The notes beneath the pieces were generated by a model. That model was not told where the DNA came from. It was given only the letters and a program-made list of their open reading frames with translations, and did no database searches. Below, piece by piece: positions 47,787 to 51,773 of a stretch of DNA of 56,460 nt. The position numbers were made by a program, and so were the translations under genes. This stretch comes from Flavobacteriales bacterium (GTDB lineage: Bacteria; Bacteroidota; Bacteroidia; Flavobacteriales; Schleiferiaceae), in assembly GCA_002707525.1 (NCBI GenBank), contig PAND01000003.1, positions 21,155 through 77,614 of the forward strand, written 5' to 3'. The stretch's first letter is position 1. The number at the start of each line of letters is the position of its first letter.

Positions 47787-48212
47787 GTGTTAGACAAACT
47801 TAATTCAAATGAAACAAGGTATCGCCTAAGAATTGGCGAGGATATTGTGGGTTACGCCCGTGAGATTGGAAGAACACGTTATTATTCGAAAGACCAGTTC
47901 TGGTGGAATGGGGCAATCATCAAACACAATCAAGTGGACGAGTGTATTGGTCTCAAAGATCTCAATAATAGGCCTTTGTTTGAATTCGACATCATTGAAT
48001 ATGCTATTGATGGAGGACGAGATAGAATGGGTTGCATTTTATGGGAACATAAGAAAGAGCAGTTCATCATAAAAGATTTAGACGATATCTCGCTAGATAT
48101 TCCTTTCTCCGTAGATGGATTGGTTCTATTTGCGTCAGAGGATATGAAGTTTCGTGCCCATCTGTTTGCTCAGCCAGATTTAATGCATGCTTTAGGGGTT
48201 AGAGACAATTAA
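47787..48212 (+). CDS. Small protein with YopX-like domain
   Basis: 141 aa starting at GTG 47787; no in-frame ATG occurs before codon ~85. The middle (about 50-95) resembles the YopX domain, where homologs read like CxGLKDxNGxxIYEGDIV followed by a beta-barrel; here it reads CIGLKDLNNRPLFEFDIIEYAI, then GCILWEHKKEQFIIKD. YopX proteins are mostly phage-borne and of unknown function. No phage genes adjoin, and base composition looks like that of its neighbours. It lies alone between the dsbD-like gene and tyrS. An AGAACA-N16-TGTTCT inverted repeat precedes it. Assignment is moderate. Confidence 0.65.
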   Translation: MLDKLNSNETRYRLRIGEDIVGYAREIGRTRYYSKDQFWWNGAIIKHNQVDECIGLKDLNNRPLFEFDIIEYAIDGGRDRMGCILWEHKKEQFIIKDLDDISLDIPFSVDGLVLFASEDMKFRAHLFAQPDLMHALGVRDN

Positions 48213-48253: not shown

Positions 48254-49534
48254 ATGAATACAAATTTTGTAGAAGAGCTACGTTGGAGAGGCATGCTCCA
48301 TGATATGATGCCGGAGACGGAGGAATTATTGACCAAAGAAATGGTTAAGGGCTATATCGGTTTTGATCCCACAGCAGATTCGCTAGGTGTTGGTAATATG
48401 GTTCAAATTATGACCCTTGTTCATTTTCAACGTGCAGGTCACAAACCCATTGCATTGGTAGGTGGTGCCACGGGAATGGTAGGAGACCCCTCTGGTAAAA
48501 GTGCTGAACGTAATTTGTTAGACCTAGATACATTGCAACACAATTTGGATTGTCAAAAACGGCAATTAGAAAAATTCCTAGATTTTGATTGCGGTGCTAA
48601 TAGTGCAGAAATTGTAAACAATTACGACTGGTTCAAGGAATTTGATTTCTTAGGTTTCATACGGGATGTGGGAAAGCATATGAGCGTGAACTACATGATG
48701 GCCAAAGACAGCGTTAAAAAACGCTTAGATACGGGAATGAGTTTTACCGAATTCTCCTATCAGTTAATTCAAGGATATGATTTCTACCACTTGTGGAAGA
48801 ATGATGGGGTGAAATTGCAAATGGGCGGTTCCGATCAATGGGGCAATATTACTACAGGCACAGAACTTATTAGACGATTAGGTCGTGGTTCTGCTCATGC
48901 ATTGACTACGCCACTAATCAAAAAAGCAGACGGCACTAAATTTGGCAAGTCAGAAGGAGGAAACGTTTGGTTAGACCCTCAAAGAACTTCGCCTTATGCC
49001 TTTTATCAATTTTGGTTGAATGCCTCAGACGTTGATGCTGAAAATTACTTGAAGATATTTTCAATTAAATCTAGAGAAGAGATAGAATCTCTCATTGCCA
49101 AGCATCAGGAAGCACCGTTCAAACGGGCACTTCAAAAAGCTCTAGCAGAAGAAGTTACGGTACGGGTTCATGGTCAATCAGACTTGGAAAATGCGTTGGC
49201 TGCCTCGCAGATTTTGTTTGGAAAAGCAACTGAAGAGCAGCTTCGTACTATAGATCGGGCAACGCTTGAAAGTGTTTTTGAAGGTGTGCCTCAATTTGAG
49301 TTGAATGTTTCTGAACTAGGAGGTGGTCTAGATATAGTGCAGGCTTTAGCGGAAACTACAGCTGTGTTTCCCTCAAAGGGCGAAGCTCGCAAGATGCTCC
49401 AAGGCAATGGCGTGTCTATTAATAAAACTAAAGTCGGAGCCAATAAAGTTCTGACCTCTGCAGACGTCATTGCTGGCGGTTTAATCATTGTGCAAAAAGG
49501 CAAAAAGAATTACTTTCTCTTAAAAGTGAATTAA
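48254..49534 (+). CDS. tyrS: Tyrosyl-tRNA synthetase with altered HIGH motif
   Basis: 426 aa, class I TyrRS of the bacterial short type. It activates tyrosine and charges tRNA(Tyr). Conserved landmarks: WRGMLHD and PETEELL at the start, GFDPTADSL (T40), [48 protein letters not shown], and the KMSKS-equivalent TKFGKSEGG near 231-239. A C-terminal S4-like RNA-binding domain ([17 protein letters not shown]) follows. The odd point is the HIGH signature, which reads G-V-G-N at 45-48, so both histidines are absent. A TATTTTAG box (48218-48225) may be its -7 element. The remaining motifs look intact, so the gene does not look decayed. Confidence 0.94.
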
Positions 49535-50011: not shown

Positions 50012-50746
50012 TTAGAGCACCACGTAATCAAAGACGATATCATCGATCTCTTTCAAGAAACGATCATTCGGGCGCTGAAAAAAATAAAACATCCCGAAAT
50101 CCCTCATTTCTGCTCCTTTGAGTTTCGCGTATTCAAATTCTTCTCCCTTATTCACTAAACAGTAAGGAATTCCGCTACGAAATATGATCAGCGTTTGAAA
50201 ATCAGGTTGAGATGGATTAGCACTGCGATTGAGGTAAGCCCAACACTCGTATTCTCCGAAATCCTTGCCTTCCCACCCCTTAGTTTTCAATAGATCTACA
50301 AGTGCGTCTCTTACGGCACCGCCGCGTTTACCTTCAAAGAAATGTTCAATGGTAAGAGTAGGAAAACTTCTACGTTCTAATTGCCTGCCTATTATTTTAC
50401 CGCTAAGAATGATTTCATGATACTTACTCATACGGCGGGCAGTACTTTCCCAAAGGCTGTCTATGGGGAATCCGTCTTGGCAAAATCCTAAAGTATCCTT
50501 CTTTACAGAAAGCAATGCAGCACCTGCCATTAATCTTTTATCCAGTACATTGACATAATCGTCATGTACCCATAGGTGCACGGTAGCGTCGTATTCACCC
50601 CCTTTGAAATTGGATGCGCTGACTCGTACAGAATCTCGTAATTCTAGTTGATCTTCACCATTATTCAATTGGGCTCCGCGTCTAACTACCTGCGAATAGG
50701 TGAATGTGCTCCATGATACCAGGAGCATTACTGCAATTTTTCTCAT
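50012..50746 (-). CDS. Hypothetical secreted protein
   Basis: 244 aa from the ATG at 50746, which overlaps the LuxE-like stop by 4 bases (ATGA); an ATG two codons upstream is also open. A signal peptide (about 1-18, ending TYSQ) is followed by a soluble domain with no motif that I recognise. Charged and aromatic segments (RRSFPTLTIEHFFEGKRGGAV, WEGKDFGEYECWAYLNRSANP) suggest a compact mixed alpha/beta fold. It is the last gene of the LuxE-like pair, and function is unknown. Confidence 0.7.
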   Translation of the reverse strand: MRKIAVMLLVSWSTFTYSQVVRRGAQLNNGEDQLELRDSVRVSASNFKGGEYDATVHLWVHDDYVNVLDKRLMAGAALLSVKKDTLGFCQDGFPIDSLWESTARRMSKYHEIILSGKIIGRQLERRSFPTLTIEHFFEGKRGGAVRDALVDLLKTKGWEGKDFGEYECWAYLNRSANPSQPDFQTLIIFRSGIPYCLVNKGEEFEYAKLKGAEMRDFGMFYFFQRPNDRFLKEIDDIVFDYVVL

Positions 50747-51720
50747 AAACATACCATTAGGTTACAGCCACGGATTTCACTTTTATCCAGACGCCCGTAT
50801 ACCTCAAATGTACCATTTTCAAAAACCCTGCCTTGGTCACTGATAGCTAAAAAACAGCAGCTATTTTGGTTGGCCAGGTCAATGATTTGAAGCGCACCGC
50901 GACTTTCATTTCTCACCGGAGCTCCTAGAGGATCCGAGATATCCCTTGTATAAACACGCATCCATGGTGGACATACAAAGTGTCCGCTATTTTTCATATA
51001 CGCCTGTGACAGTAGTTCGGTCATGCCGTATTCACTGTCAATAGGGCTTGAAGGAAACTTCGCTTTCAACTGAGCATGTACTTGGTCTCGGATAAGTTCT
51101 TTGCGCCGGCCCTTCATGCCGCCCGTTTCCATGACTCGTAGTTGCGGAAAATCCATGGCAGATATGGTTTCTGCAAAGTCCAAAAGTCCAAAGGTTACAC
51201 CTAAAAGTAAAGTGGGGCGTTGCTGCTTTTGAAGTGTTATAAGCACCTTTTCTAACGCTCCATGGTTGTATAGATAAAATCCACTTTCTTTCTTCCCAGA
51301 GCGCTTTATCATGCCCTCAGCCATAGCTACCAATGAAGATCCACTGCGCTCTAGATAACTCGGAAGTAAGGCCAATACCGTCCAATCCTCCAAGTCGCCA
51401 AATTCACGCTCGAATCCTTTTACATAGACCTGCTCGTAATGAGCCAATTCTTTTACCCAATGATTGCTCGGGGTTTCCCCTGTTGTTGCAGATGAAGTGA
51501 ATACAGTCTCTGGAGTAAATGCTCCCGTGACTACCCGGTGTTTCTTATAGAGCTCTACCGGTAAAAAAGGAATGTTTTTCAGTGCTTTGACTGCCTTTGG
51601 CGTGCGATTAATTAAATCACAGAACTTACCGTACACCTGATTATTCGCATACTGATACCGAAACATCTCAAGAGCAGCTGCTTCGAAATTTTGGTCAGTG
51701 ATGTCTGTGAAGTTGCGCAT
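50743..51720 (-). CDS. LuxE/PaaK-family acyl-protein synthetase-like protein
   Basis: 325 aa from the ATG at 51720; the frame is open to a TTG at 51753 but that lies in the terminator stem. The adenylation-type signature is visible: TSSATTGETPSNHW near 85-98, followed by LLLGVTFGLLDFAE and EYGMTELLSQAY. LuxE proteins activate fatty acids as acyl-AMP and load them onto a protein; in Bacteroidota, solitary members of this family have unknown substrates. No luxC or luxD is present. Its start codon directly follows the T-run of a strong terminator hairpin (51721-51749), so the way it is expressed is unclear. A hypothetical gene overlaps its end. Confidence 0.82.
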   Translation of the reverse strand: MRNFTDITDQNFEAAALEMFRYQYANNQVYGKFCDLINRTPKAVKALKNIPFLPVELYKKHRVVTGAFTPETVFTSSATTGETPSNHWVKELAHYEQVYVKGFEREFGDLEDWTVLALLPSYLERSGSSLVAMAEGMIKRSGKKESGFYLYNHGALEKVLITLQKQQRPTLLLGVTFGLLDFAETISAMDFPQLRVMETGGMKGRRKELIRDQVHAQLKAKFPSSPIDSEYGMTELLSQAYMKNSGHFVCPPWMRVYTRDISDPLGAPVRNESRGALQIIDLANQNSCCFLAISDQGRVFENGTFEVYGRLDKSEIRGCNLMVCL

Positions 51721-51749
51721 AAAAAAACCGCGGTCCCAATGGCCGCGGT
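51721..51749 (-). terminator. Intrinsic terminator after the TonB-dependent receptor
   Basis: ACCGCGG / CCGCGGT, a perfect 7-bp stem (51727-51733 with 51743-51749), loop TCCCAATGG on the plus strand, followed on the minus strand by seven T (51727-51721). The next bases are the ATG of the LuxE-like gene. Confidence 0.88.
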
Positions 51750-51773
51750 TCAAAATTACACTTTTGTATGTCG

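Follow-up and report, generated by a model that had tools for sequence, protein, structure and literature searches.

The window analyzed here (the whole stretch of 56,460 nucleotides of contig PAND01000003.1, from a Schleiferiaceae member of the Flavobacteriales) carries a complete gene for tyrosyl-tRNA synthetase (TyrRS), whose features are collected in Table 1. The encoded protein matches the tyrS equivalog TIGR00234 with 395.9 bits (curated cut-off, 113.8) and, in the Pfam search, the class I W/Y catalytic domain PF00579 with 269.5 bits. Furthermore, a TyrRS fold is predicted, with E. coli TyrRS (6hb6) being the top solved Foldseek match (TM 0.85) of an AlphaFold model with a mean pLDDT of 88.6. 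The original prediction had also described an intact S4 domain; a C-terminal domain is indeed present, but it is found under the Pfam name SYY_C-terminal, with no S4 model listed. With respect to the neighboring open reading frames (ORFs), the short one upstream of tyrS is, we presume, similar to YopX-like phage proteins.

Table 1. Positions of tyrS, its active-site codons and two neighboring reading frames in the window
Feature	Position	Strand	Remarks
ORF upstream of tyrS	47787-48212	+	141 aa; no Pfam match at E 0.01
tyrS, tyrosyl-tRNA synthetase	48254..49534	+	ORF, 426 aa, complete
Codon 40, Thr40	48371..48373	+	Thr in 117/118 His45-less sequences, Ser in 1
Codons 45-48, Gly-Val-Gly-Asn replacing HIGH	48386..48397	+	bases ggt gtt ggt aat
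Codons 82-86 (Lys82/Arg86 loop)	48497..48511	+	in His45-less sequences, Lys82 117/118 (1 Arg), Arg86 118/118
Codon 101, CAA (Gln101)	48554..48556	+	residue tracking the loss of His45; sequence comparison
Codons 229-233, KFGKS, KMSKS-equivalent loop	48938..48952	+	Lys229 and Lys232 in 118/118 His45-less sequences
C-terminal domain (SYY_C-terminal), residues 338-423	49265..49522	+	PF22421, 52.7 bits, cut-off 27
ORF near tyrS	50743-51753	-	PF04443 (LuxE acyl-protein synthetase), matched in part with 32.8 bits

The phmmer alignment of the window protein with B. stearothermophilus TyrRS (2ts1) is gapless across the motif, placing G45 on His45 and N48 on His48 of H45-I-G-H48. The bases and this alignment bear out the earlier reading that Gly-Val-Gly-Asn stands where HIGH is expected, and they rule out a HIGH motif lying elsewhere in the protein. 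The first position of the motif is Gly instead of the His (or, as in E. coli TrpRS, Thr) of the class I signature, and the third, Gly47, is common to all 118 His45-less sequences and to all 211 His45 sequences of >40% identity. What we take to be the tyrosine/ATP-site residues of TyrRS outside HIGH are all retained (Y34, D38, T40, D78, K82, R86, Y169, Q173, D176, D194, and Q195); the claim that T40 and the KMSKS-equivalent loop are intact thus stands, with Thr40, Lys82, Arg86, and KFGKS all present. In the classical mechanism, Thr40 is the partner of His45. In one Gly45 sequence from genus g17 (L163, genome G045), Thr40 is replaced by Ser, leaving both classical phosphate-binding side chains altered. 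In the AlphaFold model, Gly45 directly precedes helix 46-60, and Gln101 lies within helix 91-105, after the Lys82/Arg86 loop.

Distribution of Gly45 and its nested covariation with positions 48 and 101

We read 363 TyrRS sequences, of which 350 remained as distinct after removal of 13 identical ones. Position 45 is Gly in 112 of these, Thr in 6, His in 231, and masked in 1, counts that are not to be read as frequencies, since loci were sampled by match rank downward and later hand-picked for family spread. A TyrRS match was found in 83 of the 88 genomes of the window's own family. G-V-G-N is found in all 24 loci from the window's own genome and genus (L001 to L024), with no sister sequence among them carrying a His codon at 45; the wider family (f1) is mixed, with 61 Gly45 and 21 His45 among the 82 loci read. 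In total, Gly45 loci carry 17 different family codes, and kinship labels together with named records (e.g., Schleiferiaceae and Cryomorphaceae) assign them to Bacteroidota of the window's class. Restriction of Gly45 to a single lineage is ruled out by these 17 family codes and by switches inside two genera (see below). Ordinary in its role, the window tyrS encodes an active site that is genuinely unusual and that many Bacteroidota have in common.

The 112 Gly45 loci among the 343 loci of an intermediate data set (repeats included) use all four Gly codons at position 45 (GGT 35, GGA 29, GGG 20, GGC 28), as well as both codons at position 48 (56 and 56) and both at position 101 (45 and 67). Since all synonymous codons are in use at the three positions, it is the residue that is kept and not the DNA. 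Genomes of up to 5.5 Mb are found among the Gly45 carriers. The earlier view that tyrS is not a decayed gene is upheld by the 112 distinct Gly45 sequences among 350, by the use of all four codons, and by the retention of the other active-site residues. Two genomes of family f15, genus g63 (G237 and G246, ~0.3 Mb, 96% complete), gave no match to the window TyrRS query, although a TyrRS match is present in other members of f15 that are about as small (G101, G270, and G273); tyrS of G237 and G246 is possibly very diverged or lost.

A first comparison of 31 Gly45 with 106 His45 sequences (near-copies removed) singled out only residue 101 besides the motif itself, with Gln in 31 of 31 Gly45 sequences versus 8 of 106 others, which mostly have Ile, Val, or Leu. 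The comparison was widened to 274 and then 343 loci and finally to the 350 distinct sequences, where Gly45 is always accompanied by Gln101 and Asn48 (112/112) and Gln101 is always accompanied by Asn48 (137/137, namely 112 Gly45, 5 Thr45, and 20 His45 sequences). Wherever position 48 is His, Ser, or Gly in this set, Gln101 is absent. The five Thr45 sequences with Gln101 are T-I-G-N enzymes from family f76 (L316 and L318 to L321), ~50% identical to the window protein, and the sole His45-less sequence read that lacks Gln101 is L239 (genome G381, family f37), with T-V-G-N and Thr101. In a held-out check, 20 sequences were fetched after the rule had been set, of which two had already been read (L375 = L082, L382 = L050). 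All 18 new ones fit the rule: 6 have Gly45, all with Gln101 and Asn48, 2 have His45 with Gln101 and Asn48, and 10 have His45 without Gln101.

This strict nested covariation is new here; a literature search, which covered few subscription papers, turned up no account that we recognised of a natural TyrRS without His45 or with Gln101. As read from the sequences, the covariation indicates a coupling of positions, not contact. It also makes the notion that this lineage compensates for its missing histidine, put forward in the original prediction, a specific and testable claim, with concrete support in the form of Gln101 and Asn48 beside every Gly45 read.

Possible role of Gln101 and alternative explanations

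TyrRS was the first enzyme in which mutagenesis was used to measure how individual side chains stabilize a transition state, and His45 and Thr40 are the foremost case; in the Bacillus enzyme, His45 stabilizes the transition state at its pyrophosphate end. The H45G mutant of Bacillus TyrRS, engineered in a 1985 paper, is reportedly strongly slowed, and the H48N change is said to have a mild effect. Mutation of either HIGH histidine of TyrRS is described as lowering activity (PMC5919687). The same His-to-Gly change as in H45G has been made by nature in many Bacteroidota families, apparently together with a partner substitution.

We lean towards the explanation that the window TyrRS is the cell's only, working enzyme, in which the HIGH site was probably remodelled stepwise and Gln101 offsets the lost His45. 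Position 48 would first have become Asn; Gln101 would then have replaced the aliphatic residue that normally occupies its place in the helix following the loop of Lys82 and Arg86; and His45 would finally have been lost to Gly or, separately, to Thr. The order Asn48, Gln101, His45 loss is proposed because of the nesting. Gln101 would reach the pocket opened by Gly45 and hydrogen bond there near the ATP phosphates, either directly or via Asn48, water, or Thr40. The simplest mechanism compatible with the sequences may be that Gln101 supplies a polar contact or helps Asn48 and Thr40 to supply it. The sequence itself, the single gene copy, the conservation, the nested covariation, and the joint switches in two genera are directly shown, whereas we infer the activity of the enzyme, the step order, the proximity of residue 101 to residues 45 and 48, and a part for Gln101 in catalysis.

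Several observations qualify this proposal. Gln101 occurs with His45 kept in 20 sequences, which indicates that its first role was not replacement of His45 and fits a permissive step. As a counterpoint to replacement, Gln101 is tied more tightly to Asn48 than to Gly45. L239, with Thr45 and Thr101, implies that Gln101 is not strictly required once position 45 is Thr. By class I topology, residue 101 could sit further along the helix than the phosphates.

A bolder version, which we put forward only tentatively, is that the catalytic group itself has migrated, so that Gln101 now makes the contact with the transition state that the first histidine of HIGH makes elsewhere. This would have allowed at least two losses of His45, one to Gly and one to Thr, as well as its return or loss inside genera, in the fixed order Asn48, Gln101, His45 loss. 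If this were true, TyrRS would have two catalytic solutions able to stand in for each other, with the HIGH motif as one of them. The natural series HIGH, HIGN, HIGN with Q101, GVGN with Q101, and TIGN with Q101 makes stepwise rewiring of an essential site testable.

The main rival to compensation by Gln101, which we consider unlikely, holds that Gln101 and Asn48 merely rebuild the pocket by packing after the loss of His45, with no catalytic replacement; activation would be slower, or carried by Thr40, Lys82, Arg86, and the KFGKS lysines, and tolerated where it does not limit growth. If the two sites adjoin, Gly45 with Gln101 versus His45 with Ile, Val, or Leu101 could be an exchange of size, and the retention of all other catalytic residues, as well as the 20 sequences combining Gln101 with His45, agrees with this. 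However, such a swap needs no polar residue, yet Gln is found in 112 of 112 Gly45 sequences, and the variant is kept across the 17 family codes, the genomes of up to 5.5 Mb included, with no signs of decay.

It is more improbable still that the pattern reflects shared ancestry, with one old gene type G45/N48/Q101 spread by descent and transfer without functional coupling. The largest Gly45 groups are clade-like, as this would predict. For a tree of 206 sequences (<85% identity) built with columns 45-48, 50, and 101 left out, the fewest changes required are 9 for His45 loss, 11 for Gln101, and 22 for Asn48. A four-state test of correlated evolution (own script, with rates by simplex search, so that values are approximate) gave likelihood ratios for His45 loss of 57.5 with Gln101 and 47.4 with Asn48. 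By comparison, 178 control columns with the same ancestry (outside 45-48 and 101, with the commonest residue of the His45-less rows at an overall frequency of 0.2 to 0.7) reach at most 25.4 (median, 6.35), which argues against ancestry alone. Column 186 (Cys to Val/Ile), associated in raw counts, was rejected as a candidate partner, with a likelihood ratio of only 10.6 on the tree. When 219 columns (frequency, 0.15 to 0.8) were scanned in reverse for partners of Gln101, position 48 ranked first (65.7) and position 45 second (45.1). Position 98, at a distance of one helix turn, came next (34.8), followed by 144 (31.0) and 50 (22.7); the median was 6.7.

Independent pairs between His45 loss and Gln101 number 9 on all branches but 3 on starred ones, a number that does not suffice for a sign test and that favors ancestry. 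The within-genus switches and the separate TIGN enzymes stand against it. Genus g90 (f30) contains both forms, GVGN/Q101 in L210 and L374 and HVGS/I101 in L204 and L268, as does genus g119 (f59), with GVGN/Q101 in L211, L232, and L381 and HIGS/V101 in L383; this second mixed genus came from the held-out sequences. Positions 45, 48, and 101 switch jointly in both genera. Positions 41 and 50 also change in both switches, among many others (L210 and L204 differ at ~80 positions). In a careful tree of 33 sequences, with columns 41, 45-48, 50, and 101 left out, each mixed-genus group is supported at 100/98 and five changes are needed. A single clade of Gly45 rows is rejected only marginally on this tree (p-AU 0.037, for a group picked once earlier trees were known), a point in favor of ancestry. 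The TIGN rows of family f76 form their own clade (support, 99) that does not adjoin the Gly45 rows. In an earlier tree, L246 (HVGN) and L239 (TVGN) stand beside Gly45 rows on a weakly supported branch (83), a placement that hints at further reversals. Large gene conversion is an unlikely cause of the within-genus switches, identity over segments of 40 to 50 residues being 0.66 to 0.96 with no foreign-looking N-terminal block, although short tracts may have been exchanged.

That the window TyrRS is a specialised second enzyme beside a normal one, as the original prediction had offered as an alternative, is very improbable and did not hold up. Even with E values of up to 10 allowed, the window genome yields a single TyrRS match, and the same search is sensitive enough to find a distant TyrRS type at ~30% identity elsewhere in the phylum; with the genome 91% complete, absence alone is no proof. 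A PF00579 search was run on 24 chosen genomes, all with a His45-less TyrRS (21 Gly45 and 3 Thr45), namely the window's and 23 others of at least 96% completeness. Exactly two proteins match in 22 of the 24, one TyrRS and one of 315 to 354 aa, the latter being TrpRS by TIGR00233 in the window genome, TrpRS-like by eye in five genomes, and assigned by size alone in the rest. G003 and G686 have three matches each, the third being a fragment that covers 48 profile positions in G003 and a further protein, TrpRS-like by its size, in G686. The search thus turned up no second TyrRS in these 24 genomes, each of which has one TyrRS-sized match. From single copy and conservation in sequence, the window TyrRS is probably active in tyrosine activation and tRNA-Tyr charging. 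Many members of genus g23 (family f5; e.g., G112, G119, G153, and G263) have two TyrRS matches per genome, which suggests a second TyrRS-like gene in these genomes.

Neither gene decay nor an error in sequencing or assembly is a realistic prospect given 112 distinct Gly45 sequences from many assemblies, all four Gly codons at position 45, and the absence of stops inside the TyrRS matches listed.

Comparison with known synthetases

The second bacterial TyrRS type (L324 to L343, ~30% identical), which we take to be TyrZ-like, has the same function and class as the window enzyme; all 20 sequences read keep H-(L/I)-G-H and align Tyr to position 101. The window protein is of the B. stearothermophilus/E. 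coli type (TIGR00234; class Ic), with which it shares the domains, the fold, and the KFGKS loop, as well as Thr40, Asp78, Lys82, Arg86, Gln173, Asp176, Asp194, and Gln195. It differs from this type in having Gly for His45, Asn for His48, and Gln at position 101, to which the alignments match Ile of the two reference enzymes, from Bacillus and E. coli, and Leu of Elizabethkingia 6n0w.

The engineered H45G Bacillus TyrRS carries the same substitution at the same site, but that enzyme was made in the laboratory with an aliphatic residue at 101 and with His48, whereas the window TyrRS has a natural Gly45 with Gln101 and Asn48. The natural variants warn against treating the HIGH histidine as an invariant hallmark of a class I synthetase that is active. 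E. coli TrpRS, of the same subclass as TyrRS, has TIGN in place of HIGH (PMC10201369). The first His is missing and Asn stands fourth, as in the window enzyme, and the TyrRS of family f76 share the exact T-I-G-N, whereas the window TyrRS differs in having Gly at the first position instead of Thr.
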